NCBI RefSeq assembly: GCF_900100265.1
Contig: NZ_LT629696.1
Location: 248,001 to 312,000, forward strand
Length of the DNA: 64,000 nt
Direction of reading: 5' to 3'
DNA from: Leifsonia sp. 466MF
GTDB taxonomy: Bacteria > Actinomycetota > Actinomycetes > Actinomycetales > Microbacteriaceae
Positions 1 through 18,287 of this stretch are shown one piece after another; positions within the stretch are counted from its first letter, which is position 1; each line of letters begins with the position of its first letter. Made by a program: the position numbers and the translations under genes. The notes beneath the pieces were generated by a model. It worked only from the letters and a program-made list of their open reading frames with translations. It did not search any database and was not told the origin of the DNA.

Positions 1-851
1 AGCTCCAGCTCGAGTCTCCGACCGCGATCCAGATCTTCCTGCCCTGCGACGGAGCGGACGATGCGGCCGTTCTTGACGCCCTGGAGAAGGAGGTCGCCGC
101 CATCGGCGAAGCGTGGACGGGCGCGCGCCCGGAGCGGATCCCGATGGTGCCGCAGGAGCTGACGGTGGAGGCGTTCGGAAGCCGGGTATCCAGCGGGGAG
201 TCGCAGAACAAGCTCTTCCTCGGGTTGAACAAGAGCAGCGCCCTGCCGGAGAGCTTCGACCTGTTTGTCGGTAAGGCGTTGGCCATCTTCCCTGCGACAG
301 GGAAGCAAGCGGCGTCAACGTATCCGTTCGTGATCGAAGGTCTGCGGGATGCGATCGCCAGCGAACACCTTGTCGTCATCGACGCTCATGACACGCTCAG
401 GCCGCTTCTCGGAGCTATCGAATGCCTCTACATCGGAAAGGCGGCGCTGAAGAGTCATGCCGAGGCGGTCAAAAAGGCGCTGACGGATCTGACCGAGTTC
501 GGAACACGGACGCCGAGCTGCATCCTGATCAACGGCCTGACCGATGTGTTGGAGAAGCTCATGCTGCCGACCGATCAGCTCGCCGAGCTTCTCGGCGCCA
601 GCGGCGATCACGTCCAGGTGATCCTGTTGGACCACGTTTCCAAGGTGAACAGCAATTTCGGCTTGATCGCGACACTCAAAGAGAACGTGGATCAGCTCCT
701 CTTCGGTGGCGACCTGGGAACGCAGCGGTTCGTCGACAACCTGCCGCTCGCGGCCCGGAGGCAGGCGGCCGGCAAGAACGTCCTCCATTCGCTCAAGGAT
801 GACGAACTCTCCGAGATCGTCATCCCCACCATCCAGCAGAACGAAGGATGA
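1..851 (+). CDS. EssC-like T7SSb ATPase, C-terminal part (5' end outside window)
   Basis: The reading frame is open from base 3, so only the last 282 residues are seen. The protein resembles the C-terminal ATPase domain of EssC/YukBA, the FtsK/SpoIIIE-type motor of Firmicutes-style type VII secretion. It shows an IPMVPQEL segment, then a LFLGLNKSSALPESFDL strand region that in EssC precedes the last P-loop. That P-loop is degenerate here: PATGKQA (visible residues about 97-103) lacks the GKS/GKT ending, as is usual for the last EssC domain. The stop overlaps the next start (ATGA), beginning a chain of overlapping genes. In EssC systems the C-terminal variant matches the downstream substrate set, which fits the genes that follow. 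The family call is from motifs and context only. Confidence 0.75.
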   Translation, partial: LQLESPTAIQIFLPCDGADDAAVLDALEKEVAAIGEAWTGARPERIPMVPQELTVEAFGSRVSSGESQNKLFLGLNKSSALPESFDLFVGKALAIFPATGKQAASTYPFVIEGLRDAIASEHLVVIDAHDTLRPLLGAIECLYIGKAALKSHAEAVKKALTDLTEFGTRTPSCILINGLTDVLEKLMLPTDQLAELLGASGDHVQVILLDHVSKVNSNFGLIATLKENVDQLLFGGDLGTQRFVDNLPLAARRQAAGKNVLHSLKDDELSEIVIPTIQQNEG

Positions 852-1063
852 CGATGACCCTCGAAATGACGGGCGACCTCCTGGGCTTGGGGTCCATCGT
901 TCGGCTGGAGACCGAGAGCGCTTCCGGCTTGTTCGTCGTTCTGGCGAGAGGAGCGTTCCGACCGGATAACACGCGGAACGAGGTCGTCGCGCGCTACCTG
1001 GTAGGTCCGCATCCCTATGGGGAGGCGCCGGACAGGGAGACGTTCCCCTATTGTGGCCACTGA
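848..1063 (+). CDS. DUF4176 family small protein of T7SSb locus
   Basis: This is a 71-residue protein whose ATG overlaps the EssC stop. Its pattern is LGLGSIVRL, a variable loop, VARYLVGPHPYGE and a terminal FPYCGH. This matches DUF4176, a small beta-rich family found almost only beside Firmicutes-type T7SS LXG substrates. The molecular role is unknown; an accessory role with the secretion substrate is inferred. A second in-frame ATG lies at 854. No signal peptide or membrane segment is visible. Confidence 0.65.
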   Translation: MTMTLEMTGDLLGLGSIVRLETESASGLFVVLARGAFRPDNTRNEVVARYLVGPHPYGEAPDRETFPYCGH

Positions 1064-1310
1064 AATCCATACTGTTGTTCATCATGGCTACACTGATGCC
1101 GCTGATACAGAATTTCTCACGGATCTTCTCGACCAGATGGAGAACGGGCGTCGCAAGACGACGCAGGTAAAGCAGTTCGCGGGCGCCCTCACGGACATCC
1201 CCGATGCCGTCCAAAGCGAGGAGATCGAGAACATGGCGCGGGTTCGCGCGGACCCGTTCTTCGAACTTCGTGGGTTGGTCCAGCAGCAAGACAGGAAAGG
1301 TGAGTCGTGA
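1053..1310 (+). CDS. Small hypothetical protein in T7SSb operon
   Basis: This is an 85-residue acidic, probably helical protein. The GTG at 1053 was chosen because it gives a short overlap with the DUF4176 gene and has an AGGGAG element at 1034-1039; a longer frame to 1017 would overlap its neighbour by 47 bases. The sequence has an FLTDLLDQMENG helix and an ENMARVRADPFFELRG segment. No family was recognised. Its position between DUF4176 and a WXG100-sized helical protein suggests a substrate, adaptor or chaperone of the same secretion module. The stop overlaps the next GTG (GTGA). Confidence 0.6.
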   Translation: MATEIHTVVHHGYTDAADTEFLTDLLDQMENGRRKTTQVKQFAGALTDIPDAVQSEEIENMARVRADPFFELRGLVQQQDRKGES

Positions 1311-1576
1311 AGGTCGCGTCAAACGTCGGTGCCGCACAGGAGGCCGTCTCGGGGTTCGCGGAGCTTGATACGAGCGGGGGAGGGCAGCAGGTGACCCTGA
1401 GCGCGAGCAACGTTTCGTGCATGCAAGACGGATCAAGCGTCGCGAACAAGCTCCTTGACTGCATCTCTGAACTCGCGTCCGGCGTGAAAGGTCAGGCGAG
1501 CAACGTAACCGCCCTTGCCGCCGAGATCGAGGATCGGGACAAGCAGGACGCGAGCGGCTGGTGCGAAGCGCGATGA
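1307..1576 (+). CDS. WXG100-sized T7SS protein (TIGR04197/YwqI-like)
   Basis: This 89-residue protein has the helical layout of small type VII substrates and LXG partners: a short N-terminal helix, a Thr/Ser-rich turn, then a long helix ending SNVTALAAEIEDRDKQDA. It resembles the TIGR04197 (SACOL2603-like) and DUF5344 (YwqI) families, which are encoded next to LXG toxins and bind their N-termini. The GTG start overlaps the upstream stop and the stop overlaps the next ATG, so translation is probably coupled. The resemblance is by pattern and neighbourhood; no WxG motif is seen. Confidence 0.55.
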   Translation: MKVASNVGAAQEAVSGFAELDTSGGGQQVTLSASNVSCMQDGSSVANKLLDCISELASGVKGQASNVTALAAEIEDRDKQDASGWCEAR

Positions 1577-1926
1577 GGCATCTGAGTGCACAGCAGATCG
1601 AGATCGAGCAGAGGATTCGGGCTCACGAGGACAACACGGCCGAACAGTTGGCGACGATTCGCGTGCTCGAGGAGCAGTGGGACGACTACCGGCGAGTGAT
1701 GCGGGAGAACACGACCCTGTTCGAACAAGCCGGCATCGCCATGGGCGCGGATAACTACTTCGTCAAGAAGGGCCTAGTGGCGAGACGAGAGGTCGACAGT
1801 TACGTCGGCCAACTGGCGAATGAACAGGCCGAGCTCTTCGAGGAGACAGCGAGCAGCATCCGCTCGTCATCCGAAGAAGAGCTGGAACGCATGCGGCGAG
1901 AGAAAGCGGGCATGTCATGGGCTTGA
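1573..1926 (+). CDS. Coiled-coil T7SS accessory protein (YwqH/DUF5082-like)
   Basis: This is a 117-residue, highly charged, heptad-rich protein with no membrane segment. The ATG at 1573 overlaps the upstream TGA (ATGA); an in-frame GTG exists at 1561. The gene order (WXG100-sized protein, coiled-coil protein, then LXG-like protein) matches the Bacillus ywqH-ywqI-ywqJ arrangement, where such small helical proteins are partners of the LXG domain. The family call is tentative. The 3' end overlaps the LXG-like gene by 10 bases. Confidence 0.55.
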   Translation: MRHLSAQQIEIEQRIRAHEDNTAEQLATIRVLEEQWDDYRRVMRENTTLFEQAGIAMGADNYFVKKGLVARREVDSYVGQLANEQAELFEETASSIRSSSEEELERMRREKAGMSWA

Positions 1927-3155
1927 TTTACGACTCCGGCGACTCGGGAAACCTCAAAGCTGCACTGTCGGCGAACCTCACAGCCGCGTCCGCCGTGCTG
2001 ACGAAGCTGAGTAGCGCGTCCACCCGTCTGACCACCGCTCTGGGCACGGGGGAGCTATCCGGGAAGGGCTATACGGCAGTCGATTCCTTGTTCGCGCAGA
2101 TCATCGCGCCGTGCGTCAAAGAGGCGAAGGACGAGATCGACTCCATCTCTGGCGAGCTCGAAACCTATACGAGCGAAGACTCCAAGGTGAGCAGGTTCGG
2201 GGTGCTCAAAGAGGATGAGCTGAACACTCAACTCAGGGCGACCAAAAAGCAGCGCGACGCGACCGAACACCAGATCGAGGTCCACGAACGTGCCGCGGAC
2301 TCATCGACGGCAGTGCCTGGCCTTAGTGAAGCGTTGGAGGCGAAGAACGCTCAATTGGAGTTGGTACTGAACCAGCTCGAGAAGGACATCCACGAACTGG
2401 AAGACAAGCTCAAAGCGCTGCGAGACTTCGCTGCGGCGACCAAGGGTCTCTTCATGGGGCGGCTCGAGAACCTGGCAGCTGCCACCGGCGACGTCATCGC
2501 CCTGCTGAAGAGCTTGAGCGAGCCGGCTGTGATGCCCGGTATGAAGCTCGACGTCCTCGGAGCCACCGGAAGCGCGCTGGGGGCCGCGGCGACGAGGAAG
2601 GAAATCCTCGAGTATCTCGCGGGCGGGAAGATCAAGGCTGACGGCAAGGGCCGTCTGAAGGTCGGTAAGACGTTTCTGTACGACCCGAAGGGTAAGTATC
2701 TCTACAGCGGGGGCAAGGGCCTCAACGCCGCAGCCGGAACGCGGATCGACCACTATTTGCAGCCGGTCAAGGCAGGCGCGAGCGCTGCGCTCAAGGCTCC
2801 CATCGACGACTTCACCGGGTGGAAGGGCACCTCTAATCTCAGCAAGCTCGGCAAGTTTTCTGGCGCTGCCGGCACCGTTCTTACCGTCGGGTCCAACGCT
2901 GACAAGTACTTCGGCGACGGTGTGCAGGGTAATGATGTGCCGGACTTCGCCGTCGATACCGGAGTCGACCTCGCGGGCGCGGCGGCCGCGGCCGGTGCGG
3001 GCGCCGCAATCGGCTCGCTCATTGTGCCTCCGGCTGGGACCATCGTTGGAGCGGTGGCCGGGTTTGTGGTGGGTTTGGCGCTGAACATCGAATGGGGCGG
3101 TGGTCCCTCAGCGACTGATGCCGCCAAAGAGATGATCAAGAAGACCTACCGCTGA
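1917..3155 (+). CDS. LXG-like T7SS effector with glycine-rich hydrophobic C-terminus
   Basis: This 412-residue protein begins MGLIYDSGDSGNL. It has an N-terminal helical region with a GYTAVDSLF segment and two long coiled-coil stretches (roughly 75-190), the layout of LXG proteins exported by T7SSb. The C-terminal part carries a long Ala/Gly-rich hydrophobic stretch (about 346-394, containing AAAAAGAGAAIG and VGAVAGFVVG) that looks like a glycine-zipper membrane-insertion segment. Membrane-depolarising LXG toxins such as Staphylococcus aureus TspA have a comparable tail; the comparison is by architecture only. No nuclease or ADP-ribosyltransferase motif was seen. The following gene, 1 base away, encodes a multi-pass membrane protein that would suit an immunity role. 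Confidence 0.6.
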   Translation: MGLIYDSGDSGNLKAALSANLTAASAVLTKLSSASTRLTTALGTGELSGKGYTAVDSLFAQIIAPCVKEAKDEIDSISGELETYTSEDSKVSRFGVLKEDELNTQLRATKKQRDATEHQIEVHERAADSSTAVPGLSEALEAKNAQLELVLNQLEKDIHELEDKLKALRDFAAATKGLFMGRLENLAAATGDVIALLKSLSEPAVMPGMKLDVLGATGSALGAAATRKEILEYLAGGKIKADGKGRLKVGKTFLYDPKGKYLYSGGKGLNAAAGTRIDHYLQPVKAGASAALKAPIDDFTGWKGTSNLSKLGKFSGAAGTVLTVGSNADKYFGDGVQGNDVPDFAVDTGVDLAGAAAAAGAGAAIGSLIVPPAGTIVGAVAGFVVGLALNIEWGGGPSATDAAKEMIKKTYR

Positions 3156-3156
3156 C

Positions 3157-4008
3157 ATGATGCAAGAGAAGAAGCCGACTATCGCCGAGGCGAACCGTGC
3201 GTATTTCCAGGCCTTAGCCAACACTCGCGGATCCATCGCCATGCTGCCTGCTTTGGCAGGTCCCACAATTGTGGTGCTCTTTGCGGCGAACGTTGGGCCG
3301 TTGAATGCTCCCAGTGCATTCGAGGGCTACGGCGTACTTTCGTCCCTCTCGGCCATCAACGTTGTGCTCATCTGGACCAGCGCAATCTGCCTATTGCTGT
3401 CGGTGCTGCTCAAGGGTGTGAGCTACCGAGCCCAGGTGCTTTCCTCAATGGTCATGGCGGGCATGGCAGTGATCCTCGTCTATTGCCTATGTTTGCTGGC
3501 ACTCGCAATAGCAACGCTTTCCCAGGCAAGAGGAGAGCAGTTCTATGCGACGCTCTTCAGCACCGTAGGCATCATCACTGTGGTGATTGTCGCCGGTTCG
3601 ACGTCGGTGCACGTCCTCCTGCTGCGACGTCGGTTGCGAATCGGGCATTCCGAGAAGCGCACGATGGGCAACTTCCTAGCTGTGTCCCGATCCAATCGGT
3701 CCACGATGTTCTGGATTGCCTTCGGACTGGTGGCGGTGGTGTCCAACGTGGTGACGTCTGGGCAGTATCTCGTGAACACGGCTGGTGCGCTCGGGTTGCT
3801 CCTTTTTGCTTGTGTAATACCCAGTCTCCCGGTCGAGTTCGCGTACCTCGCCTATCTGAAGTCGAAGGATCGTGACTACTGGGAGCGTCCTCCTCGCCCC
3901 GTGGCGAAGGAAGTGCGCCTGAGGCTTGCCAGGAAGATCATCCTCTGGGTTGTGGGGATAGCGGGGGCTCTCGCTCTGTTCTGGGTACTGGCCAAGTACG
4001 TTCTGTGA
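3157..4008 (+). CDS. Multi-pass membrane protein, candidate immunity protein
   Basis: This 283-residue protein has about seven hydrophobic segments (roughly 27-50, 63-84, 94-118, 133-155, 184-199, 206-234 and 260-283). Charged loops lie between them, including RRRLRIG after the fourth and KSKDRDYWERPP before the last. It is not a recognisable transporter. The gene starts 1 base after the LXG-like effector stop, so it belongs to the same transcript. Membrane-acting T7SS toxins are usually neutralised by a polytopic membrane protein encoded next to them, hence the proposed role. Part of this gene is the least GC-rich stretch noticed in the window (3481-3540 has 31 G/C of 60 by hand count), consistent with acquisition by transfer. 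Confidence 0.6.
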   Translation: MMQEKKPTIAEANRAYFQALANTRGSIAMLPALAGPTIVVLFAANVGPLNAPSAFEGYGVLSSLSAINVVLIWTSAICLLLSVLLKGVSYRAQVLSSMVMAGMAVILVYCLCLLALAIATLSQARGEQFYATLFSTVGIITVVIVAGSTSVHVLLLRRRLRIGHSEKRTMGNFLAVSRSNRSTMFWIAFGLVAVVSNVVTSGQYLVNTAGALGLLLFACVIPSLPVEFAYLAYLKSKDRDYWERPPRPVAKEVRLRLARKIILWVVGIAGALALFWVLAKYVL

Positions 4009-4080
4009 CCGCGGTTCCCGGCTCACCCGCCGCACATCGTGAACGGTTCTGAACGAGACAACGAGAAATGAGGACTCACC

Positions 4081-4524
4081 GTGAAACTCCAACCGCGCAC
4101 GCTGAGCATGAACAACGTCGTGAGCTACACGCTCGACCTACACGAGGGCGACGAGCTTCTGGACATCGTCGACGGCACTGCCGCCTACTTCCGTGAGGTT
4201 CTGGTGCACAACGGTTACTACACCACGGGCCCAATGGTCTTTCGGGGACTTCCTGGATCGGAGACCTTCACCCTCATGACCACTCTGGGTAATCGTGTGA
4301 ATATGGTCGGTGATCGCCACTCCGGATTCGAATTCCAAGAGCGCGTAGAGCTGGAGACTGACTACTTCTATCGTCACTGGGATGTCGAGGAGCCACTGCC
4401 GTACGACGCGATCGAGGAGGCCGTGGCAGAAGAAGGATTGAGTCTTCAGAGCGTCTATCACGTGATCCTCGACTTCTACGGCGAGTCCGTGCTCGACCTA
4501 TACGCGCACGTGGAGAAGCGTTGA
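4081..4524 (+). CDS. DUF5085-like protein, first paralogue
   Basis: This 147-residue soluble protein starts at a GTG after a GAGGA element. Features are a MNNVVSYTLDL strand near the N-terminus, a central TTGPMVFRGL segment and a closing VYHVILDFYGES followed by VLDLYAHVEK. This is the pattern of the DUF5085 family (GyrI/effector-binding-like fold), which occurs with Firmicutes T7SS clusters. The function is unknown. It is followed with a one-base overlap by a second protein of the same kind, so the two may form a heterodimer or serve different partners. Alternative: an unrelated GyrI-like sensor. Confidence 0.5.
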   Translation: MKLQPRTLSMNNVVSYTLDLHEGDELLDIVDGTAAYFREVLVHNGYYTTGPMVFRGLPGSETFTLMTTLGNRVNMVGDRHSGFEFQERVELETDYFYRHWDVEEPLPYDAIEEAVAEEGLSLQSVYHVILDFYGESVLDLYAHVEKR

Positions 4525-4997
4525 TGGCCACGCCGTTTCATGACGTGGCGTTCGGCCAAAGACTGTCCTTTCAAAACGTGTTGAGCCATCGCACAAAGTG
4601 TCACTACACGGAGATGGCGGCGCAGTTCGACGAGTTCGTGTCCCGGGTCGAGGCGGACGGCTGCGAACCCGTGGGGCCGCTCTTCTACAGTCTCCACAAC
4701 GTGCCGATGGACGAGATGGTCGATATCGAGACGTTCGTCCCGATTCGGCAAAGCACCTTCCCACGTCACGAGGATTTTCTGTTTCATTCGTACGTCGACG
4801 TCTCCCCTCTCCTGAGAGGGATCGTCAAGGGTGAATTCGACGAGCAGACAGAAGCGGTGTACACACAGCTTCTGGCGACGTTGGAAGCGAACGATCTGGA
4901 GATCAATTCGCCCTTCTACCACGTGTTCCAAAAGGACCCGTCGCCATTCGTCCTGGTCTATGTCGGGTACGTCGACCCGGACCAGAGCGCCCCATGA
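4524..4997 (+). CDS. DUF5085-like protein, second paralogue
   Basis: This 157-residue soluble protein has its ATG overlapping the upstream TGA by one base (TGATG). It shares the layout of the preceding gene: an early FQNVLSHR segment, central VGPLFYSLHNVP and a C-terminal YHVFQKDPSPFVLVYVGYV. The GPLFYSLHNVP block resembles the GyrI-like/DUF5085 core more clearly than in its neighbour. It is the last gene of the lower-GC secretion block; the next gene is convergent and has the high-GC codon use of the rest of the window. The role in secretion is unknown. Confidence 0.5.
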   Translation: MATPFHDVAFGQRLSFQNVLSHRTKCHYTEMAAQFDEFVSRVEADGCEPVGPLFYSLHNVPMDEMVDIETFVPIRQSTFPRHEDFLFHSYVDVSPLLRGIVKGEFDEQTEAVYTQLLATLEANDLEINSPFYHVFQKDPSPFVLVYVGYVDPDQSAP

Positions 4998-5083
4998 TGA
5001 GGTTGCGCACCAAGGCAGTACGGAACAAGCACACCCTCGTACACACCCCGATGCAGTAGGTCGGGCTCGTGCGGGCGGCCGCT

Positions 5084-6913
5084 TCACCCTTCCGCGTCGC
5101 CGCGGTCCCGGTGCAGCACCCCCTTCACGCGCTCCACGCCCTCGGTGACCAGCGAGGTCGCCGAGTCCTTGATGGCGCCGAGCCCGTCCGGGTCGCCCTT
5201 CAGCAGCGCGAACGCCGTGTTCTTGGCGAACTCCGCTGTGATGTGCGGGGGGAGGGGCGGCACGTTCTTGCTGGTGTGCGCGTCGATCAGCGTGACGCCG
5301 CGGTGGGCGAATGCGGCATCCCACGCGGCGGCCACATCGTCGTCGTCGGTCACGGTGATGCCGTTGAAGCCGAGGAGGCGCGCCCACCCGGCGTAGTCGA
5401 CGGACTCGACGGCCTGTGCGGTCTCCCAGACGGGGTTCGCGTCCTCGGTGCGCATCTCCCACGAGACCTGCGTGAGGTCGTCGTTGTGCAGCACCAGGAC
5501 GATGAAGGTCGGGTCGGACCAGCGTGACAGGTACTTCTTGATGGTGATGAGCTCGTTCATCCCGAGCATCTGGAACGCGCCGTCGCCGATGGTGCAGACG
5601 ACCGTCCGGTCGGGATACGCGAACTTCGCCGCCTCCGCGTAGGGCATCGCTGCGATCATCGTGGCGAGGCGGCCGGAGAGGTCGCCGAGCATCCCGTCGC
5701 GAAGCCGGATGTAGTGGCCGTACCAGTCGGCGGTGGTGCCCGCGTCGGCGGTGACGATCGCGCCGGCGGGCAGCCGCTTGTTCAACTCCGCGTACACCCG
5801 GCGCGGGTTCACTCCGTCGTCGTAGGTCTGATCGGCCTGGGCGGCGAGCTCGTCGTCCCACGTCCGCATGTCGTCGGCGACCTTCTCCTGCCAGGAGAGG
5901 TCCTCCTTCTGGGTGAGCAGGGGGAGGAGTCCGGCGAGGGCGGTCTTCACGTCCGCCCAGATGCTCACCTCGGTCGGGTACCGCAGGCCGAGCTGCTCGG
6001 GTCGCAGGTCGATCTGTACGGCCCGCGCCTGCCCGGTCGCCGGGAGGAACTGCCCGTACGGATAGTTCGTGCCGAGCAGCACGAGCGTGTCGCACTCCTT
6101 CATCTGGTGGTAGCTCGGCCGGGAGCCGAGGAGCCCCAGCTGCTGGGTGTGGAACGGCACGTCCGACGGCACGGTTTGCTTGCCACGGAGGGAGGTGATG
6201 ACGCCGGCGCCGGCGAGCTTCGCCGCCTCCAGCACCTCCGCCGTCGCGCCGTTCGCCCCGGCGCCGACCAGGAACGTGACGCGCTCGCCGGCGTTGATCA
6301 GATCGGCGGCGGCCTGCAGCTGCTCCAGCGGGGGAGCGATGGCGGTGGATGGCGCCACAGCACTCGAACGCGACTGCCACATCTCAGGTCCCGGCTCCAC
6401 CATCTTCTGCCCCTGCACGTCGTGCGGAAGGATGATCACGCACGGCTGCAGCCGGGTGATCGCGGTCCGGAACGCGGTGTCGACGACGGCCTGCGCCTGC
6501 GCGGGCGACACGATCGTCTGGACGTACGCGGCGACGTCCGAGAAGGTCCGCTCGAGGTGGCTCTCCTGCTGGTTGAACGTCCCCAGCGAGTCGAGGCCCT
6601 GCTGGCCGACGATCGCGACGACGGGCTGGTTGTCCATCTTCGCGTCGTACAGGCCGTTGATCAGGTGGAACCCGCCCGGGCTCGACGTGGCGACGCACAC
6701 GCCGACCTCGCCGGTGAACTTCGCGTGCGCCGTCGCCATCAACGCGGCGATCTCCTCGTGCGTCGGACGGATGTACTCCACGCCCTCCTCGGCCCGCTCC
6801 GCCTTGCCGAGGGCGCCGTCGAACTCCCCGATGCCGTCGCCGGGGAATCCGAACACCCGCCGCACGCCCCACTCCCGGATCCGCTCGATCACGAACTCGC
6901 TCACCGTCGTCAT
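5084..6913 (-). CDS. Thiamine-pyrophosphate enzyme, pyruvate oxidase/acetolactate synthase-like
   Basis: This 609-residue TPP-dependent enzyme has the three-domain layout of pyruvate oxidase (PoxB), acetolactate synthase and related decarboxylases. The N-terminal PYR domain begins RVFGFPGDGIGE and has the catalytic-type Glu in THEEIAALMA. A central domain follows, then a C-terminal PP domain with GDGAFQML. In the cofactor motif the usual NN is replaced by HND (VLHNDDLTQ). Translation starts at an ATG with AAGGAG 7 bases upstream; the open frame extends further but without a ribosome site. It is downstream of an NDH-2-like dehydrogenase on the same strand, which fits a quinone-linked pyruvate oxidation role. 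Substrate not proven. Confidence 0.85.
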   Translation of the reverse strand: MTTVSEFVIERIREWGVRRVFGFPGDGIGEFDGALGKAERAEEGVEYIRPTHEEIAALMATAHAKFTGEVGVCVATSSPGGFHLINGLYDAKMDNQPVVAIVGQQGLDSLGTFNQQESHLERTFSDVAAYVQTIVSPAQAQAVVDTAFRTAITRLQPCVIILPHDVQGQKMVEPGPEMWQSRSSAVAPSTAIAPPLEQLQAAADLINAGERVTFLVGAGANGATAEVLEAAKLAGAGVITSLRGKQTVPSDVPFHTQQLGLLGSRPSYHQMKECDTLVLLGTNYPYGQFLPATGQARAVQIDLRPEQLGLRYPTEVSIWADVKTALAGLLPLLTQKEDLSWQEKVADDMRTWDDELAAQADQTYDDGVNPRRVYAELNKRLPAGAIVTADAGTTADWYGHYIRLRDGMLGDLSGRLATMIAAMPYAEAAKFAYPDRTVVCTIGDGAFQMLGMNELITIKKYLSRWSDPTFIVLVLHNDDLTQVSWEMRTEDANPVWETAQAVESVDYAGWARLLGFNGITVTDDDDVAAAWDAAFAHRGVTLIDAHTSKNVPPLPPHITAEFAKNTAFALLKGDPDGLGAIKDSATSLVTEGVERVKGVLHRDRGDAEG

Positions 6914-9388: not shown

Positions 9389-10762
9389 ATGAGCTACGCC
9401 GTGACCAATCCCGCCACCGGCGAGACGGTCAAGACCTTCGACACCATCAGCGATGCCGACCTGGAGGCGGCGATCGCGTCCGCAGACCACGCCTTCCGTA
9501 CCTGGTCGCGGTCGACGACCACGCAGGAGCGGGCTGCACTGATCCGCCGCGTCGGCGAACTCCACGTGGAGCGCCGGCAGCAGCTCGCCGAGATCATCGT
9601 GCAGGAGATGGGCAAGCCCGTCGAGCAGGCGCTCGCCGAGGTCGACTTCGCCGGTGCGATCTACGAGTACTACGCCGACCACGCGGACGAGTTCCTGAAG
9701 GATGAGCCCATCCAGCTGCTCGACGGTGACGGGTCGGCCGTCGTCCGCCGATCGGCGCTCGGTGTGCTCCTCGGAATCATGCCGTGGAACTTCCCGTACT
9801 ACCAGGTGGCCCGGTTCGCCGGACCGAACCTCGTGATCGGCAACACCATCCTGCTGAAGCACGCGGAGCAGTGCCCCGAGTCGGCCGCCGCCATCCAGCA
9901 GATCTTCCTCGACGCCGGCTTCCCCGAGGGCGCCTACGTCAACATCTACGCGAGCCACCCGCAGATCGAGACCGTCATCGCCGACCCGCGCGTCCAGGGT
10001 GTCTCGCTCACCGGCTCCGAGCGGGCCGGCGCGAAGGTCGCCGAGATCGCCGGCCGCAACCTGAAGAAGGTCGTGCTGGAGCTGGGCGGGTCCGACCCGT
10101 TCATCCTGCTCTCGACCGACGACCTGGATGCCGCTGTGCAGAACGCGGTGGATGCGCGCCTCGACAACAGCGGTCAGTCCTGTAACGCCGCCAAGCGGTT
10201 CGTCGTCATCGACGAGCTCTACGAGCCGTTCCTCGACAAGTTCACCGCGAAGCTCTCCGAGGTCGAGGCGAGCGACCCGACGAGCGAGGACTCGGCCCTC
10301 GGCCCGCTCTCGTCGCTGAAGGCGGCGGAGAACCTCGACGAGCAGGTCAAGCGCGCTGTCGACAACGGCGCGAAGCTGGTGCGCGGCGGAGGCCGCAACG
10401 GCGCCTTCTTCGAGACGACGGTGCTCACCGACGTGACGCCCGACAACCCCGCCTCCAAGGAGGAGTTCTTCGGCCCGGTCGCCCAGGTGTACCGCGCCAA
10501 GGATGAGGACGACGCCGTGCGCATCGCCAACGACACCCCGTTCGGGCTCGGCTCCTACCTGTACACGACGGACAAGGAGCAGGCGTCGCGCGTCGCCGAC
10601 CGCATCGAGGCCGGAATGGTGTTCGTCAACGTCGTCCTGGCCGACGGCGCCGAGCTGCCCTTCGGCGGCGTCAAGCGTTCCGGTTCGGGTCGCGAGCTGG
10701 GCCGGTTCGGTGCGGACGAGTTCGTCAACAAGAAGCTGATCCGCGTGGGGAACGACTGGTAG
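9389..10762 (+). CDS. gabD: NAD(P)-dependent succinate-semialdehyde dehydrogenase
   Basis: This 457-residue aldehyde dehydrogenase has PWNFP near residue 131, LELGGSDPF containing the general-base Glu, and the active-site Cys in NSGQSCNAAKRF. The C-terminal PFGGVKRSGSGRELG motif is also present. Length and motifs match the short SSADH subgroup that oxidises succinate semialdehyde to succinate at the end of the GABA pathway. No GABA transaminase is nearby, so the physiological aldehyde is not fixed by context. The gene ends in a strong shared terminator. Confidence 0.85.
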   Translation: MSYAVTNPATGETVKTFDTISDADLEAAIASADHAFRTWSRSTTTQERAALIRRVGELHVERRQQLAEIIVQEMGKPVEQALAEVDFAGAIYEYYADHADEFLKDEPIQLLDGDGSAVVRRSALGVLLGIMPWNFPYYQVARFAGPNLVIGNTILLKHAEQCPESAAAIQQIFLDAGFPEGAYVNIYASHPQIETVIADPRVQGVSLTGSERAGAKVAEIAGRNLKKVVLELGGSDPFILLSTDDLDAAVQNAVDARLDNSGQSCNAAKRFVVIDELYEPFLDKFTAKLSEVEASDPTSEDSALGPLSSLKAAENLDEQVKRAVDNGAKLVRGGGRNGAFFETTVLTDVTPDNPASKEEFFGPVAQVYRAKDEDDAVRIANDTPFGLGSYLYTTDKEQASRVADRIEAGMVFVNVVLADGAELPFGGVKRSGSGRELGRFGADEFVNKKLIRVGNDW

Positions 10763-10774
10763 TCACCAACGAGA

Positions 10775-10805
10775 AAGGGCCGGGCGTCTGAGACGCCCGG
10801 CCCTT
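10775..10805. terminator. Bidirectional intrinsic terminator
   Basis: A perfect 14-bp stem (aagggccgggcgtc / gacgcccggccctt) with a 3-base loop lies between the convergent dehydrogenase and membrane-protein genes. A-rich and T-rich flanks on the two sides allow it to work in both directions. Confidence 0.9.
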
Positions 10806-10818
10806 CGTCGTTTCGCGG

Positions 10819-12102
10819 TCAGTTGAAGGTGACCACGACCTTGTCGTCGTCGATCTTGATGTCGGCGCTGATGTAGCCGGCCTCGCCCGTGAGGTTCTCG
10901 CTCGCCGGGTTGCCGCTGAAGTCCGAGCCGGTCATCACGGCCGAGAACTTCCCCGGGCCGATCTTGAACTGGTAGTAGGAGTCGGAGTCGTCGCTGATCT
11001 CGACCTTCGGCGACTCGTCGACCTTCACGGCGACCGTCGACTTCGAGACGGCCATGTTGCTCGGGTAGCTGAGGTCGATGCCGCAGTCCTCCACGTCGTA
11101 GTACGACGTCTTGGTGGCGCACTCCGCGTAGTGGGCGTCGACCTGCTTCTGCACCTCGTCGAGGTAGGCCTGCGACGGGGTCAGCTTGAGGTCCTTCACC
11201 TGGTACGAGTCGGCGGCCACCGTCAGCTTCGGGGAGCCAGCCAGCTCGTAGTACTTGTTCGGCGCCTCGATGCTGTAGACGCCCGGGTAGGCGACGACCT
11301 CGGAGTCCTTCGACGTCAGCGAGTGGTCCGCGCCCGGCACCGAGTAACCCGGGATGCTCGACGACACGAACGGGAGCTGGTAGGTCAGCCCACGGCTGAC
11401 GTACCAGCCCTTGTCGTCCTTATCCAGCTCGATGGTCCCGCGGTAGGTCTTGCCCGCGAGCTTGTACGTGACGCTCACCTGGGTGAGGTCGGAGCTCCGG
11501 CTGGTCAGTGTCCGGCTCACGACCGGCGCCGTGATGTGCTGCGCCTTGCCGAGGACGGCGTTGGTGAGCAGGAAGTTCTCGTCCTCCGAGGAGTCGACCC
11601 GCGCCAGCTTGTTGGCGGCCGAGGCGTTGCCCTTGGCGATGTCGTTCAGGTAGTCCTGCGCGACCGACTTGGCGCCGCTCCCGCCCAGCAGGTTCGCGAT
11701 GAGAACGATCGCCACGATCACGACGGCGGCGAACGCGACGGCCCCGCCGATGACCCACCAGACCCACCGCGGGACGGCCGGCTTCTTCTTCTCGCCGACC
11801 GGCGGCGCGTACGGGTTCGGCTGGGCGCCCGGGTAGGGGTGCTGGCCGGGCGCGGTCGCGTAGGCGGCCTGCTGCTCGGGAGCGACCGGCTGGGTCGGCG
11901 GCGCCGGCTGCTCGGGTGCGGCGGGCTGCTCGGGTGCGGCGGGCTGCTCGGGTGCGGCGGGCTGTTCGGGTGCGGCGGGCTGTTCGGGTGCGGCGGGCTG
12001 CTCGGGTGCGGCCGGCTGCTCGGGTGTGGTCGGCTCGGATGCGGCCGGTGTGCCCTCCGGAGCCTTGTCGTGGTCGTCTGCGGGCACGGTCGGGTCGCTC
12101 AA
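10819..12102 (-). CDS. Membrane protein with cytoplasmic PEQPAA repeats and extracytoplasmic domain
   Basis: This 427-residue protein uses a TTG start with AAGGGGGA 4-5 bases upstream. Residues about 20-75 are a proline-rich repeat (PEQPAA units), followed by a PYPGAQPNPYAPP stretch and a basic KKKPAVPR. One transmembrane segment follows (about 110-135, WVWWVIGGAVAFAAVVIV), then an extracytoplasmic region of about 290 residues rich in Ser, Asp and Tyr. The exported part starts with a DUF4878-like helix (AQDYLNDIAKGNASAANKL) but no family was firmly recognised. The architecture resembles cell-envelope sensor or anchoring proteins of Actinobacteria. Function unknown. Confidence 0.7.
   Translation of the reverse strand: MSDPTVPADDHDKAPEGTPAASEPTTPEQPAAPEQPAAPEQPAAPEQPAAPEQPAAPEQPAAPEQPAPPTQPVAPEQQAAYATAPGQHPYPGAQPNPYAPPVGEKKKPAVPRWVWWVIGGAVAFAAVVIVAIVLIANLLGGSGAKSVAQDYLNDIAKGNASAANKLARVDSSEDENFLLTNAVLGKAQHITAPVVSRTLTSRSSDLTQVSVTYKLAGKTYRGTIELDKDDKGWYVSRGLTYQLPFVSSSIPGYSVPGADHSLTSKDSEVVAYPGVYSIEAPNKYYELAGSPKLTVAADSYQVKDLKLTPSQAYLDEVQKQVDAHYAECATKTSYYDVEDCGIDLSYPSNMAVSKSTVAVKVDESPKVEISDDSDSYYQFKIGPGKFSAVMTGSDFSGNPASENLTGEAGYISADIKIDDDKVVVTFN
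11906..12031 (-). repeat. Seven tandem 18-bp units coding PEQPAA
   Basis: The unit ggctgctcgggtgcggcg recurs seven times in frame, the last copy diverged and two copies carrying a t for c change. It encodes the proline-rich cytoplasmic repeat of the membrane protein. Copy number is likely to vary between strains. Confidence 0.9.
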
Positions 12103-12540
12103 TATTCCCCCTTGATGATGTGATGACGATCGGATACCGCCCGAGACATGGGCGTCGATCAGAAACTTTTCAAGAATATCAGTCCTCGGTCCACAATCCA
12201 GTCCTCTGGAGGGTGAAAACGAGGGATTCGCGCGCTGGAGGCCGATGTCCTGTAGTCTTGCGGGAACCCGGTCAGCCGACGACGTCTCGCACCGGGTCGA
12301 TTGAGCGCACCTTCCTCGTGACGTGTGCGCATGTGTACCCGCGGCCACGGCCGCGAAAAAGGAAAAGTATCTCACCCTCCGTCCGGCTCCATCAGCCGTT
12401 CAGCTCTCCGGCGAGGGCCACTCCCTCCCCGACGAATCGTCACGACCGCTCCATTCCGTCGTGGCGCTCAGCCGTCCGCGCTCTCTGCGCGGCGAACGGG
12501 ACCGTCATGGTCCCCAACACCAAATAAGAAGGAAGAAACG
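12103..12540 (+). promoter_or_regulatory. Intergenic region with long cspA leader
   Basis: There are 438 bases without a convincing gene between the divergent membrane-protein gene and cspA. An extended -10-like TGTAGTCT (12251-12258) could start a cspA leader of about 280 bases, the length typical of cold-shock mRNA leaders. The leader contains paired GC-rich stretches (for example cccggtcagccgacgacg and caccgggtcg near 12268-12299). An A/G-rich ribosome site, AAGAAGGAAGAAACG, precedes the start codon. Leader function is inferred. Confidence 0.4.
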
Positions 12541-12747
12541 ATGGCCACAGGTACCGTCAAATGGTTCAGCACGGAGAAGGGCTACGGGTTCATCGCCCCG
12601 GATGACGGCACGGCCGACGTCTTCGCCCACTTCAGCGAGATCGCGTCGCAGGGCGAGTTCCGCAACCTGGCCGAGAATCAGAAGGTCGAGTACGAGGTGA
12701 CCCGCGGCCCCAAGGGCCTCCAGGCATCCAACATCCGACCGGTCTGA
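12541..12747 (+). CDS. cspA: Cold-shock protein CspA family
   Basis: This is a 68-residue single cold-shock domain. RNP1 is KGYGFI and RNP2 is VFAHF, with the invariant GTVKWF start. Such proteins bind single-stranded RNA and act as RNA chaperones at low temperature. The long untranslated leader supports post-transcriptional control. It is followed by its own terminator, so it is monocistronic. The downstream fatty acid desaturase is another cold-related gene, although separately promoted. Confidence 0.96.
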
Positions 12748-12755
12748 CCGGTCCT

Positions 12756-12787
12756 CGATGCGGGGCCGGTTTGCCGGTCCCGCATCG
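12756..12787 (+). terminator. Terminator hairpin after cspA
   Basis: The sequence cgatgcggggccgg / ccggtcccgcatcg forms a 14-bp stem with one G-T pair and a 4-base loop, 8 bases after the cspA stop. There is no long T run, as is common in high-GC actinobacteria. Confidence 0.8.
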
Positions 12788-12911
12788 ATCCCAAGCCCCT
12801 TCGGGCATATCTCGGTGCTGGCGCCCAGGAACGGCGCATATGCTTCGAGAATCTAGGGCGAAACGTCCAACACCTCGGCTGGGAAGTCGTCTGACACAGC
12901 GGAGGTCAAGA

Positions 12912-14003
12912 GTGACCGCTACCCTTCTCGGTCCGATCCGGACCACCAAGCCCCGCTCCGGCCGGCCGTCCGTCACGAGCACGTACAGCGAACTCCTCTC
13001 GGAGGTTCGCAGCGAGGGTCTCCTCGAGCGCCGCCGGGGCTTCTACATCACCACCTTCGCGGTCCTCATCCTCGCGCTCGTCGGCGCCTTCGCCGGGATC
13101 GTCCTCTTGGGCGACTCGTGGTTCGTCCTCCTGATCGCCGGAGCGCTCGGCATCATCTTCACCCAGCTCGCCTTCGTGGCGCACGAGGCCTCGCACCGCC
13201 AGGTGTTCGACTCCGGCCCCGCCAACGACCGCGCCGGGCGCTTCCTCGCCACCTGGATGGTCGGCATGAGCTACCACTGGTGGATGACGAAGCACACCCG
13301 TCACCACGCCAACCCGAACACCATCGGGAAAGACCCCGACATCGCCCGTGACACGATCTCGTTCACCGAGGCGGACGCCGCCCGGTCCACGGGCATCCTG
13401 CGCGCACTGACGCGTCGCCAGGGCTACCTCTTCTTCCCGCTGCTGCTGCTCGAGGGCGTCAACCTCCACTTCACGTCGCTGCGGACCCTCTTCGGCAAGG
13501 CGCCGGTCCCCGGCCGCGGCCGTGAGCTCTCCGCCATCTTCATCCGATTCGGCATCTACCTCAGTGCTGTCTTCCTGCTGATGCCGGTCGGCGTCGCCTT
13601 CGCGTTCCTCGGAGTGCAGCTCGCCGTGTTCGGCCTGTACATGGGGGCGTCCTTCGCCCCCAACCACAAGGGCATGCCGCAGCTGCCCGAGGGCTCGCGC
13701 GTCAGCTTCCTCGACAAGCAGGTGCGCACCTCCCGCAACATCCGCGGCGGATGGTGGATGAACATCCTCATGGGCGGTCTCAACCACCAGGTCGAGCACC
13801 ACCTCTTCCCGAGCATGCCGCGGCCGCACCTGGCGCGCGCTCGTGAACTGACAATCGCGCACTGCGCGGCGAACGAGGTGCCGTACACCGAGACATCGCT
13901 CGTCCGGTCGTACACCATCGTCATCCAGTACCTGAACCGCGTCGGCCTCGCGGCCCGCGACCCGTTCGACTGCCCGGCCGCCGGGGCCTACCGCCGGGCC
14001 TGA
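12912..14003 (+). CDS. Acyl-CoA/fatty acid desaturase
   Basis: This 363-residue membrane desaturase carries the three His boxes HEASHRQ, HTRHH and HQVEHH that bind the di-iron centre. Paired hydrophobic segments lie between them (about 45-85 and 200-245). The HQVEHHLFPSMPR box is typical of the DesA3/delta-type soluble-acyl desaturases of Actinobacteria. The GTG at 12912 was chosen for the GGAGG 6 bases upstream. It introduces a double bond into acyl chains using O2 and an electron donor not encoded here. Membrane fluidity at low temperature is the likely role, and it follows cspA. Confidence 0.92.
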   Translation: MTATLLGPIRTTKPRSGRPSVTSTYSELLSEVRSEGLLERRRGFYITTFAVLILALVGAFAGIVLLGDSWFVLLIAGALGIIFTQLAFVAHEASHRQVFDSGPANDRAGRFLATWMVGMSYHWWMTKHTRHHANPNTIGKDPDIARDTISFTEADAARSTGILRALTRRQGYLFFPLLLLEGVNLHFTSLRTLFGKAPVPGRGRELSAIFIRFGIYLSAVFLLMPVGVAFAFLGVQLAVFGLYMGASFAPNHKGMPQLPEGSRVSFLDKQVRTSRNIRGGWWMNILMGGLNHQVEHHLFPSMPRPHLARARELTIAHCAANEVPYTETSLVRSYTIVIQYLNRVGLAARDPFDCPAAGAYRRA

Positions 14004-14084
14004 CCTTCCCTCCGCGCATCCCGCCGGACATCGTCGAGCCAACGAACGTGCGTCTTGGCGTACGGTGTTGGCTGGAGGTGCCCG

Positions 14085-14417
14085 ATGGGATACATGGTCT
14101 ACGACAGCAGCACGATGATCACGTTCGAGGATCGCGTCCTCGCGCACCTCGAAGTGGTGATCGTGTCGAAGCTGCGCCGCAAGGAGTCGTTCGCTCTGAG
14201 CTGGCGCGAGACCGCGGAGAACGGCGACGGTCGCTCGACCGTCTGGATCGACCCCTCCATCCCTCTGCGTTTCCGGTTCAGCGGCTCACGACCGCCGACA
14301 CTCGACCGCGACTGGATCGAGCGCCTCGCGGCAGCGGCGGCCAGCTCCTCCGGTCTGATCGCCGTGGATGAGGACGGCCAGCCGGTCGTCGGGTCCACCC
14401 ACGAGCGGGGTATCTAG
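14085..14417 (+). CDS. DUF7882 family small protein
   Basis: This 110-residue soluble protein starts at an ATG with GGAGG 6 bases upstream; a TACGGT box at 14060-14065 may be its promoter. The pattern MGYMVYDSS, FEDRVLAHL, KLRRKESFALSW, STVWIDPSIPLRF and a closing SSGLIAVDE is that of DUF7882. This family is abundant in Microbacteriaceae and often mislabelled as ATP-dependent DNA ligase. No ligase motif is present. The function is unknown. Confidence 0.8.
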   Translation: MGYMVYDSSTMITFEDRVLAHLEVVIVSKLRRKESFALSWRETAENGDGRSTVWIDPSIPLRFRFSGSRPPTLDRDWIERLAAAAASSSGLIAVDEDGQPVVGSTHERGI

Positions 14418-14516
14418 GGCGCGGTCGGGATCGCGAACGGCGCTGTCTCTCGCTCGCCGCCCTGCCTCGTTAGCGTGTGTCTGCAGCGGCACTGTGTCGC
14501 GGGCAGGGGACTTTCG

Positions 14517-15296
14517 ATGCATCCGACCGAGCTCACCTTCGGCACGTGGTCGCTCACCGGTGGCGGCACCCTCATCGACCTGATCGCGGCGACGACGAAC
14601 GCTCTGAACGGTGCCCTGCTCGCGCGGCGACCGGACCACTATCGCAACTACACCTTCGTCGGCATCATCCTGATGGCCGTCATCGGCGGAATCGCGGGCG
14701 GGGTCATCCGGGACGTGATCCTGCAGGAGACACCGTCCGCCTTCGTCAACCCGGCCTACCTGGTCTTCAGCGTCGCGGCCGGTGTCGTCGGCTACCTCAT
14801 CGCCTATGCGCACGGCCAGCTGTTCCGCGAGGGCCTCTTCCAGTTCATGACGTCGTTCTCGCTACCCTGGTACGCCATCATCGGAGCGCAGAAGGCGACG
14901 GAAGCCGGCTATCCCATCGTGGGCGCACTCGCGATCGCTGTGATCGCACCGACCGCGGGCCGCTATCTGATCGACGTAACCAGCGGTGTCACGCCCAAGC
15001 AGTTCGTGCGCGGCGAGTGGTTCGTCGCGACGGCCGTCGGCACCGGATTCGTCTGGATCGTGCTCTCGGAGGCGGGCGTGCCGTACTGGCTGAGCGTCGG
15101 GGGCGCCTTCCTGCTCGGGTTCACCTTCCGCGTTGTTGCGCTGTACCGCGGATGGGAGGAGCCGCTCGCCCGCGGGCCGAAGGGCCTCAAGGTGCATGCC
15201 GACCGGCGCCCGCTGCTCGGTCGCAAGCTCTCGGGGCGCTCACAGGAGGAGTTGCGGATGCTGGGTCTCGCCGTCGACGAGGAGCCCGCCGCCTGA
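14517..15296 (+). CDS. TRIC cation channel family membrane protein (UPF0126)
   Basis: This 259-residue protein has seven hydrophobic segments. Two repeats each carry the GGIAGGVIRDVIL-type motif: GGIAGGVIRD at about 60-69 and a degenerate second copy around APTAGRYLIDV. This is the UPF0126/YadS family, related to trimeric intracellular cation channels. AGGGGA lies 6 bases before the ATG. A hydrophilic tail of about 45 residues follows the last membrane segment. Ion selectivity cannot be told from sequence. Confidence 0.85.
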   Translation: MHPTELTFGTWSLTGGGTLIDLIAATTNALNGALLARRPDHYRNYTFVGIILMAVIGGIAGGVIRDVILQETPSAFVNPAYLVFSVAAGVVGYLIAYAHGQLFREGLFQFMTSFSLPWYAIIGAQKATEAGYPIVGALAIAVIAPTAGRYLIDVTSGVTPKQFVRGEWFVATAVGTGFVWIVLSEAGVPYWLSVGGAFLLGFTFRVVALYRGWEEPLARGPKGLKVHADRRPLLGRKLSGRSQEELRMLGLAVDEEPAA

Positions 15297-15324
15297 GAGG
15301 GCGTTGCTGGCCGGAACCCGGGCG

Positions 15325-16200
15325 TTACTCCGGGATCTGCGCGAGTGCGTGCCGGGCCAGCGCCGCCATCCGAGGGTTGTCGTCCGACGCCATGGCCAGG
15401 GCGGACGCCATCGTCACCGCCCAGCCGCGCGCTCGCGCCCACGTCGCCGTGTCGGGCGTGACGGGAAGTGCACGGCGGAACCGCTCCCGCGCGTCCCGGT
15501 CGAAGGTGAGCCACGCGGTGGCGAGATCCGTGGCCGGGTCGCCGGATGTGACGTCGCCGAAGTCGACGACCCCCGTCAGATCGCCGTCCGGGCCGAGCAG
15601 CAGGTTGCCGGGATGCAGGTCGCCGTGGAGCAGCAGGGGAGGCCCGTCCCAGGCGGGCGCGTCGAGGGCCTCGCGCCAGGCCTGTTCGAGGTCGGCGACC
15701 TCCATGCGGCCGGACAGCGAGCGGAGCCGGGTGGCGACCGCATCTCGGCGTGCCGCGAGCGGGATCCCGCGCACCGGGTTGTGCGGCGCTTCGGAGGCGG
15801 GCACGGCGAGCTCGCCGAGGAAGAGTGCCAGCGGCTCGGCCAGACCGACACGGCCCGCGGCGCCGACGGATGCGCCGTCGATGCCGTCGAACCACTCCAC
15901 GACGCTCCATGGCCAGGGGAATGTCGCAGACGGGACACCGACGCGAACAGGGACGGGCACGCGGACGCTCACGCGCTCCGCGATCCCCGGGAGCATGCGC
16001 TGCTCGTGCTCGATGAGGTGCGCGGCGGCCTCCCGGCGCGGGACGCGGACCGCGAGACGGTCACCGAGTCGGTACAGCTGGTTGTCCCAGCCGTCGCTCA
16101 CCAGCCGGAGTTCTCCGTCGAGGTCGGGATGCTGCTCCGCGAGCAGCCGGGCGACCAGCGCGGCGTCGGTGGTGATGTCGGCGGCGGGAGTGTCACTCAC
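15325..16200 (-). CDS. Aminoglycoside phosphotransferase-fold kinase
   Basis: This 291-residue protein has the APH/choline-kinase fold. The catalytic loop is LLHGDLHPGNLLL and the metal-binding segment VVDFGDVTSGDPATDLA. The nucleotide-binding N-lobe carries WDNQLYRLGDRLAVRVPRR. The substrate is unknown; this subgroup (SDGWDNQLYRL type) is commonly annotated as phosphotransferase and need not give antibiotic resistance. The GTG start has a TACGGT box 7 bases upstream and no ribosome site, so the mRNA may be leaderless. It is divergent from the PLP decarboxylase. Confidence 0.82.
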   Translation of the reverse strand: MSDTPAADITTDAALVARLLAEQHPDLDGELRLVSDGWDNQLYRLGDRLAVRVPRREAAAHLIEHEQRMLPGIAERVSVRVPVPVRVGVPSATFPWPWSVVEWFDGIDGASVGAAGRVGLAEPLALFLGELAVPASEAPHNPVRGIPLAARRDAVATRLRSLSGRMEVADLEQAWREALDAPAWDGPPLLLHGDLHPGNLLLGPDGDLTGVVDFGDVTSGDPATDLATAWLTFDRDARERFRRALPVTPDTATWARARGWAVTMASALAMASDDNPRMAALARHALAQIPE

Positions 16201-16207
16201 CCGCTCG

Positions 16208-16213
16208 ACCGTA
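16208..16213 (-). promoter_or_regulatory. -10 box for leaderless phosphotransferase gene
   Basis: TACGGT on the minus strand is 7 bases from the GTG at 16200, leaving no room for a ribosome-binding site. Confidence 0.5.
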
Positions 16214-16341
16214 GCAGGCCGCCCGATAGGCTGGTGCTGGGCGCTCGAAATATCCGAATGCTGCGCTGAACGAGCAAGAGAGTTGCGTTCAGCGCCAAAC
16301 TCATGCGGGTTCTTTGTGAAAGCATGGCGATCGGAGGTTCC

Positions 16342-17721: not shown

Positions 17722-17738
17722 GCGTCCCCCGCATAACA

Positions 17739-17770
17739 GAAGACCCCGTGCCGGGAGGCACGGGGTCTTC
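17739..17770. terminator. Bidirectional terminator hairpin
   Basis: The stem gaagaccccgtgcc / ggcacggggtcttc (14 bp) with a 4-base loop lies between the convergent decarboxylase and DUF6458 genes. Confidence 0.9.
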
Positions 17771-17792
17771 CACGTTTCCAGAAGGGAGGGTG

Positions 17793-18047: not shown

Positions 18048-18063
18048 CCGGTGACCTCCGGGC

Positions 18064-18228: not shown

Positions 18229-18274
18229 GGAGAAGTGTCCTTTCCTTGACGCGCTCCACACAACAACTGCTTCA

Positions 18275-18287
18275 ATTGCCTAGCAAT
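18275..18287. promoter_or_regulatory. Candidate MarR operator
   Basis: The perfect inverted repeat ATTGC-cta-GCAAT lies between the MarR gene and the two small membrane-protein genes it precedes. TTGC...GCAA half-sites are typical of MarR-family operators. Control of the membrane genes by the adjacent MarR is inferred. Confidence 0.5.

Follow-up and report, generated by a model that had tools for sequence, protein, structure and literature searches.

Gene content of the locus

The window analysed here is a stretch of 64,000 nucleotides (bases 248001-312000) of the single-contig 4.14 Mb genome of Leifsonia sp. 466MF (Microbacteriaceae, Actinomycetota). Its left edge falls within essC, at the 3' end of a type VIIb secretion system (T7SSb) locus, and behind this gene there is a chain of open frames that resembles an effector module of the LXG type. 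All lie on the forward strand, at window positions 3-851, 848-1063, 1017-1310, 1307-1576, 1561-1926 (with an ATG at 1573), 1917-3155, 3157-4008, 4081-4524 and 4521-4997. Neighbouring frames overlap or have one base between them, with the exception of a 72-base gap ahead of 4081, and the guanine-plus-cytosine (GC) content is 61-63% across positions 1-6000 versus 65-74% in the remaining window.

The first frame (3-851) encodes the C-terminal 282 residues of EssC, as had been supposed in an earlier reading made from the letters alone (the sequence-only reading). By itself the segment 3-848 matches the EssC model TIGR03928 at E 5.4e-18, and the complete protein of 1491 residues, whose gene starts outside the window (L004, positions 14376-18851), reaches 1387.6 bits (cut-off 778.4). 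Upstream of the window are genes encoding the WXG100 protein EsxA, an EssA-like protein and YukD, followed by esaA on the opposite strand, essB and essC. Scores above the curated cut-offs were obtained for EssB (TIGR03926, 277.1 bits, cut-off 229.75), EsaA (TIGR03929, 128.3 bits, cut-off 122), YukD (PF08817, 45 bits, cut-off 27) and EsxA (PF06013, 62.5 bits, cut-off 27.3). The sequence-only reading had proposed a T7SSb outside its usual phylum and had made this depend on EssB and YukD homologues in the flank, both of which are there. The EssA-like protein of this genome gave no match to TIGR03927 or PF10661 in the profile search; it is 29% identical (E 3.5e-11) to the product of a Lactococcus gene that passes TIGR03927, stands at the same place and carries a C-terminal hydrophobic segment, and on this homology EssA is present. 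In comparison with solved structures, EssC is nearest to YukB of Bacillus subtilis (632 bits) and far from EccC5 (163 bits). Because the curated profiles identify the machinery and EssC is found over its cut-off in 14 of the 28 Leifsonia genomes searched, the evidence supports a complete T7SSb, with an LXG module behind EssC, in an actinobacterium.

The locus also contains a gene for a 198-residue protein of no assigned family (L004, 9580-10176, reverse strand), located between yukD and esaA in both this genome and the related genome G138. Elsewhere in the chromosome there is a second, separate T7SS-like locus (L005, genome positions 684001-704000), encoding an EccC-like ATPase of 1504 residues whose N-terminus is FHA-like (10132-14646, reverse strand) and a WXG100 protein (18584-18880, forward strand). 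ATPases resembling this EccC-like one were matched at E<=1e-150 in 44 of 120 family genomes.

The DUF4176 gene and the Lap-like partners

Behind EssC, the sequence-only reading had seen a DUF4176 protein and an unknown small protein. The DUF4176 assignment holds, with a match of 848-1060 to PF13780 at E 0.033, below the cut-off, whereas two separate small genes at 848-1310 were ruled out. The frames 848-1063 and about 1044-1310 are halves, in different frames, of one protein of about 152 residues that is encoded by a single frame in all eight aligned relatives; the first half aligns to approximately residues 1-67 of these intact proteins and the second to the remainder, which places the frame break of this genome at about 1040-1060.

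The next two genes occupy the place of the small partners of LXG toxins. In the study of Klein et al. (PMC9600955), proteins of the TIGR04197/DUF3130 and DUF3958 families are Lap1 and Lap2, respectively, and are required for LXG export. For the product of 1307-1576 (89 residues), described in the sequence-only reading as WXG100-sized and suggested for comparison with TIGR04197, a weak match was indeed obtained (1307-1573, E 0.018), its 15.6 bits remaining under the cut-off of 26; five of the nine aligned members of this group match the model at E<=1, the best at 0.0018. The motif residues of LapD1 are F77 and D81, and a change of F77 is among those that blocked TelD secretion (PMC9600955). At the corresponding place of the FxxxD motif, all nine Lap1-like proteins, including that of Lactococcus, have [ILV]xxRD, so that the aspartate is kept and the phenylalanine replaced; in the window protein this is seen at residues 74-78, with an aliphatic residue where the motif has F. 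An FxxxD/E near residue 17, present in 8/9 of these proteins, is a different location from the Lap1 motif. By its place and its weak profile match, we regard the product of 1307-1576 as Lap1-like. The following gene (1573-1926) encodes a putative helical partner of 117 residues with homologues at the same place in relatives. No DUF3958 match was listed for it in Pfam at E<=1, and its match to the Lactococcus gene at the same place is weak (8.9 bits, no shuffle control); Lap2-like is thus a designation by position only.

The LXG protein and its predicted toxin domain

The gene at 1917-3155 encodes a predicted polymorphic toxin of 412 residues, with an LXG domain at about residues 1-200 (LSG at 47-49) and a toxin domain at about 200-412. 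The LXG character proposed in the sequence-only reading was recovered in part, since the product of 1917-3152 matches PF04740 at E 2.4e-4 but with 21.5 bits stays under the cut-off of 26.5. Among 24 aligned family members, 17 reach E<=0.01 on the LXG model, the best at 2.4e-7, and the profile of the family can be aligned with an LXG protein from Lactococcus that does pass the PF04740 cut-off.

A homologue search over 8000 scored candidates returned at least 65 homologues, and the organism-named ones among the matches listed belong to Leifsonia, with one from Microbacterium and one in a record labelled Streptomyces. In 13 of the at least 65 homologues, which share the N-terminal part only, there is a PF06259 hydrolase domain. 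One LXG N-terminus is therefore found on two C-terminal types, glycine zipper and PF06259, as in polymorphic toxins, where a common N-terminus is joined to differing C-termini. Two loci (L050, 12083-14086, and L056, 11924-13939, in essC-forward orientation) encode LXG fused to a PF06259-type hydrolase C-terminus, with different genes behind. In another Leifsonia genome (G055; L054, 14000-15165), a second copy of the glycine-zipper C-terminus (102 residues) and a second polytopic gene lie behind the main toxin-immunity pair.

The glycine-zipper-like tail recognized in the sequence-only reading was confirmed. It has the form GxxxGxxxGxxxG (G374-G378-G382-G386), with G374, G378 and G382 invariant in 24/24 aligned members, and lies within a hydrophobic stretch (residues 352-394, by hydropathy); Colicin-pore matches at E<=0.01 were found in three of the 24. 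Between residues 200 and 340 there are conserved positions, and no known family matched. Confidence in the predicted structure is restricted to parts of the N-terminal helices, where LSG falls at the turn between helices 1 and 2. A search of PDB sequences with the toxin profile gave three hits, all at E>0.05, and the fold search returned mostly generic helical and BAR-type hits, none below E 0.001.

Predicted immunity genes

Immediately behind the toxin gene, 3157-4008 encodes a polytopic membrane protein with about seven helices by hydropathy, in agreement with the seven-helix protein of the sequence-only reading, and without a family match in Pfam or NCBIfam. Homologues stand directly behind the glycine-zipper toxin in five other loci, and also next to the second LXG gene in G130, part of an inverted LXG/membrane-protein module (L049, 17760-20000) far from the variant-2 module of that genome. 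The last gene of the module (4521-4997) encodes a DUF5085 protein (4521-4994 against PF16895: 77.8 bits, cut-off 30). Between them, 4081-4524 encodes a soluble protein whose family has no Pfam match in any of its six members. In profile-profile comparison this family aligned over nearly its full length to DUF5085, weakly (score 27.6, probability 24%, versus at most 23.1 in 200 of 200 shuffles). A structure model of 4108-4521, built with two sequences, was poor (mean predicted local distance difference test value 45.7), and the fold search with it gave no hit below E 0.001; four of its best five hits were CtR107 entries, which are GyrI-like.

The order of these genes can be compared with that of two characterized loci. 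In the EsxX locus of Staphylococcus aureus ST398 (essC2), LapX3-LapX4-EsxX is followed by ExiC-ExiA-ExiB-ExiD, that is, a polytopic protein, two DUF5085 proteins and a second polytopic protein; in the cytoplasm the glycine zipper is bound by the DUF5085 pair, and protection from outside comes from the polytopic pair (PMC12744356). The Leifsonia module shares with it the order Lap, Lap, LXG with glycine zipper, polytopic, soluble and DUF5085 protein, as well as the tie to an EssC variant. It differs in its actinobacterial host, in having one polytopic gene instead of ExiC and ExiD, in a first soluble partner that lies under Pfam detection, and in the DUF4176 gene directly after essC. The sequence-only reading had likened the order to that of Firmicutes LXG modules, which agrees with the EsxX locus; the DUF5085 gene, within the range it covered, had been left undescribed. 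In Streptococcus gallolyticus, the DUF5085 protein TipE protected Escherichia coli against TelE (PMC10434224). The likeness lies in an LXG toxin with a C-terminal glycine zipper, an adjoining polytopic gene and a DUF5085 protein behind.

Since the roles at the EsxX and TelE loci can be matched by order and family, 4081-4997 probably provides cytoplasmic immunity, with 4521-4997 in a role like that of ExiB or TipE and 4081-4524 as its possible partner in an ExiA-like role, and 3157-4008 probably provides immunity to toxin arriving from outside, in an ExiC-like role. A membrane-acting toxin encoded by 1917-3155 together with a membrane immunity protein, as the sequence-only reading had predicted, is our best reading of this pair.

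The EssC C-terminus and the downstream module vary together

The 14 Leifsonia EssC proteins fall into two lineages, A (n=6, including the window genome) and B (n=8), that are 50-55% identical to each other over residues 1-1250; G139 was compared by its C-terminal piece. Over residues 1290-1491 the same proteins regroup into a variant 1 (four of lineage A and six of lineage B, 49-93% identical), to which the window EssC belongs with its last ~200 residues variable and module-linked, and a variant 2 (two of each lineage, 26-68% identical). The two variants share 14-22% identity over these residues.

The downstream genes follow the variant and not the lineage. The variant-1 DUF4176 gene stands behind EssC in all ten variant-1 loci (the window's own copy broken), and Lap1-Lap2-LXG in nine of them, G134 having the DUF4176 gene and none of the three. 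In G138, whose LXG protein is 79% identical, the whole module is kept. The domain behind LXG is a glycine zipper in 7/9 loci and of PF06259 type in 2/9 (G129 and G139). At the four variant-2 loci, Lap1-Lap2-LXG is never directly behind EssC; the contigs of two of them end 1.2 kb (G140) and 2.4 kb (G132) after essC, both past the expected Lap1 start. Two DUF4176 genes are present in G140 and also in G130, where they occur with a different protein, 606 residues long, whose LXG match is sub-threshold. The EssC C-terminal variant thus goes with the downstream module across both lineages. In the tree of variant-1 C-termini, drawn from the Lactococcus row, the lineage-A sequences form one group (99/97) inside the lineage-B sequences, the root resting on one long branch; for the tree of the EssC N-terminal part the program warns that long branches meet.

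A similar arrangement is known from EssC1-4 of S. aureus, in which the C-terminus varies along with the downstream module 2 genes (PMC4788903). In Leifsonia the C-terminus likewise changes in step with the genes behind it, but here the swap crosses two deep EssC lineages (~51% identical) and takes place in another phylum. In the window EssC, variability sets in near residue 1285 of 1491, compared with ~3220 bp into the S. aureus gene.

Distribution, insertion site and origin

EssB is present at all 14 Leifsonia loci. In wider samples it exceeds its cut-off in 10/398 family genomes (seven Leifsonia, the window's own included, and three in one other genus) and in 1/396 phylum genomes, which is the window's own. 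EssC exceeds its cut-off in 2/120 family genomes, both Leifsonia (that of the window and G055), while 46/120 match the model at E<=1e-150, and in 3/396 phylum genomes, namely the window's own, G332 and G255, the last two with no EssB in the stretches examined. Outside Leifsonia, relatives of the system were found in Rathayibacter iranicus, Microbacteriaceae VKM Ac-2855, Arthrobacter bambusae and Microbacterium resistens.

In lineage A, a DEAD-box helicase gene and a pyruvate-oxidase-like gene flank the locus in the window genome (14.8 kb), G138 (19.0 kb) and G128 (12.8 kb). The G128 locus (L046) encodes EsaA, EssB and EssC, with no recognizable EsxA or YukD in the stretch examined and no effector module behind essC. 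In G140, G134 and G129 the helicase is upstream, and the match to the pyruvate-oxidase-like gene is on another contig (G140, G134) or none exceeds the threshold (G129). Two genomes lacking the T7SSb have 935 bases (G137) and 597 bases (G142) between these two genes; in the remaining 12 genomes without T7SSb the two are not side by side.

An EssB tree of 41 rows was built from 13 Leifsonia loci (G129 left out), 25 named proteins from the 120 listed of 176 hits, and three further loci. The actinobacterial sequences formed two clades in it, lineage B joining a group of Enterococcus, Lactococcus and Listeria (99/99) and lineage A joining Arthrobacter, with a wider placement that the tree does not settle. 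Lineage-A EssB is 46-51% identical to that of Streptococcaceae and Enterococcus and 43-46% to that of Leifsonia lineage B. The free tree has two clades, although the approximately unbiased (AU) test of a single one gives p 0.064, and two acquisitions of the T7SSb are likely.

A likeness in gene order was also found in Lactococcus reticulitermitis (L063). Its EsxA agrees with that of the window genome at every one of the last 19 residues, its EssC C-terminus is 35% identical over 206 aligned positions (E 2e-38), and the order behind it is the same, with DUF4176, Lap1 (36%), Lap2 and an LXG protein with a glycine-rich tail, on which the toxin profile scores 105.7 bits versus at most 8.0 in 1000 shuffles. 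In this stretch, tblastn at E<=1e-3 detected no counterpart of the membrane protein, the soluble protein or the DUF5085 protein encoded in the window. A search with the variant-1 EssC C-terminus gave 18 hits, and since both of the organism-named ones are Leifsonia, the link to Lactococcus comes from the Lactococcus loci that were compared. Most likely, the Leifsonia T7SSb was gained from a Bacillota source resembling lactic acid bacteria.

About 2 kb upstream of the L. reticulitermitis T7SSb there is a large serine recombinase gene (447-2024; Resolvase and Recombinase Pfam families over cut-off, CcrB far below), a possible vehicle for the T7SSb. Behind another Lactococcus T7SSb (L064, 17228-19908) there are tandem similar pairs of a lipoprotein-like gene with a short partner.

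Proposed working of the module and alternative explanations

Taken together, we consider it probable that the left edge of the window is the effector end of a T7SSb most likely derived from Bacillota. The sequences themselves show which genes are present, in what order and of which families, how the module is coupled to the EssC variant, and a site that is occupied in some genomes and empty in others; secretion, toxicity, immunity and the direction of transfer are what we infer. The Lap1-like and Lap2-like proteins would be the cytoplasmic binding partners of the LXG domain, and the glycine-zipper tail of the 412-residue toxin would be held by the DUF5085 protein, possibly together with the soluble protein encoded next to it, and so kept out of the membrane of the producing cell. 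EssC, through its variable C-terminal domain, and the LXG-Lap complex would recognize each other, the toxin would be threaded out through the T7SSb and the soluble immunity proteins would be shed. Outside, the glycine zipper would insert into the membrane of a competitor and cause depolarisation, from which the polytopic membrane protein would shield the producer and its kin.

Several observations weigh against this proposal. The LXG, TIGR04197 and DUF4176 matches of the window proteins all lie under the curated cut-offs, the motif phenylalanine is absent from the Lap1-like proteins (9/9), the structure model of the toxin domain is poor and of low confidence, and no LXG structure is among the hits of the PDB sequence search or the fold search for the toxin. 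On the side of immunity, there is one polytopic gene here and EsxX has two, which are required together (PMC12744356), and the six-pass protein beside telE of S. gallolyticus gave E. coli no protection from TelE (PMC10434224). As to transfer, both flanking genes are near the locus in only 3/6 lineage-A genomes, and the AU test does not formally reject a single EssB clade for the actinobacteria. Finally, a DUF4176 protein was required for TelA secretion (PMC10765036), and because this gene is broken in the window genome, its copy of the module may be impaired, if the break is not an assembly error.

This frame break is also the starting point of one alternative, in which the T7SSb and its module were acquired but are now a decaying, non-functional remnant in this strain. 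Gaps are seen elsewhere in the genus as well: G134 has no module gene but DUF4176, essC of G139 appears to be in two frames, and G128 has no recognizable EsxA or YukD in the stretch examined. We consider a remnant unlikely, given that no other broken frame was seen in the locus of the window genome and that G138 has an unbroken DUF4176 gene in its complete module. Quite unlikely, in our view, is a toxin domain that is not a pore former but, for example, an enzyme, the glycine-rich tail serving in translocation or packing only; the conserved positions of residues 200-340, without a known family and in a low-confidence model, would suit it, whereas the invariant zipper glycines, the hydrophobic stretch, the Colicin-pore matches and partners of the DUF5085 and polytopic kinds, which EsxX and TelE also have, argue for membrane action.

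An ancient T7SSb in Microbacteriaceae, lost by most members and not transferred in, could be suggested by its occurrence in Leifsonia, Rathayibacter, Microbacterium and also Arthrobacter, and by the AU test value for a single clade. The scarcity of EssB in the family, the two empty sites, the lower GC content and lineage-A EssB proteins about as near to Streptococcaceae and Enterococcus as to lineage B make this explanation very unlikely. Least credible of all is an actinobacterial system, T7SSa or T7SSd, with an ATPase that is merely EssC-like. Of these, T7SSa is usual in the phylum and T7SSd has been described from Actinomycetota (PMC11217815), and EccC-like proteins of 44 other family genomes do reach ~508-575 bits on the EssC model. 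The window EssC, in contrast, scores well above these values, this genome encodes its EccC-like system at a different place, and the two other phylum genomes with EssC over cut-off (G332 and G255) show no EssB in the stretches examined. T7SSa or T7SSd identity was rejected because EssB and EsaA are present, the nearest solved structure of EssC being YukB; T7SSd is without these two T7SSb membrane components (PMC11217815).

Relation to earlier work and significance

A 2024 survey assigned T7SSb to Bacillota, and T7SSa and T7SSd to Actinomycetota, and its main text contains no mention of Leifsonia, 'Microbacter' or 'horizontal' (PMC11217815); T7SSb is a Bacillota system also in a 2023 review (PMC10765036). 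In the literature searched, nothing joined Leifsonia with EssC or T7SSb with Microbacteriaceae, and T7SSb in Actinomycetota was not reported in the titles and opening parts of the abstracts. Database pipelines already label EssC and EssB in Leifsonia. Thus the parts are known and the genes annotated, and the biology of the Leifsonia T7SSb appears to be undescribed in this literature.

The hydrolase domain PF06259 (DUF1023) is typical of Actinobacteria. A broader picture, which we offer tentatively and which may well prove wrong, is that Microbacteriaceae repeatedly acquired T7SSb from Bacillota resembling lactic acid bacteria, run it natively, exchange cassettes and the EssC recognition domain between two lineages, and load the LXG chassis with the PF06259 hydrolase.

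A complete T7SSb in Leifsonia, with its ATPase in half of the genomes compared, implies that the machine can persist in the envelope of another phylum, and provides a distantly related system in which to ask what T7SSb requires of its host. The joint swap of EssC C-terminus and module across two deep lineages would constitute a natural experiment on substrate selection by the EssC domain.

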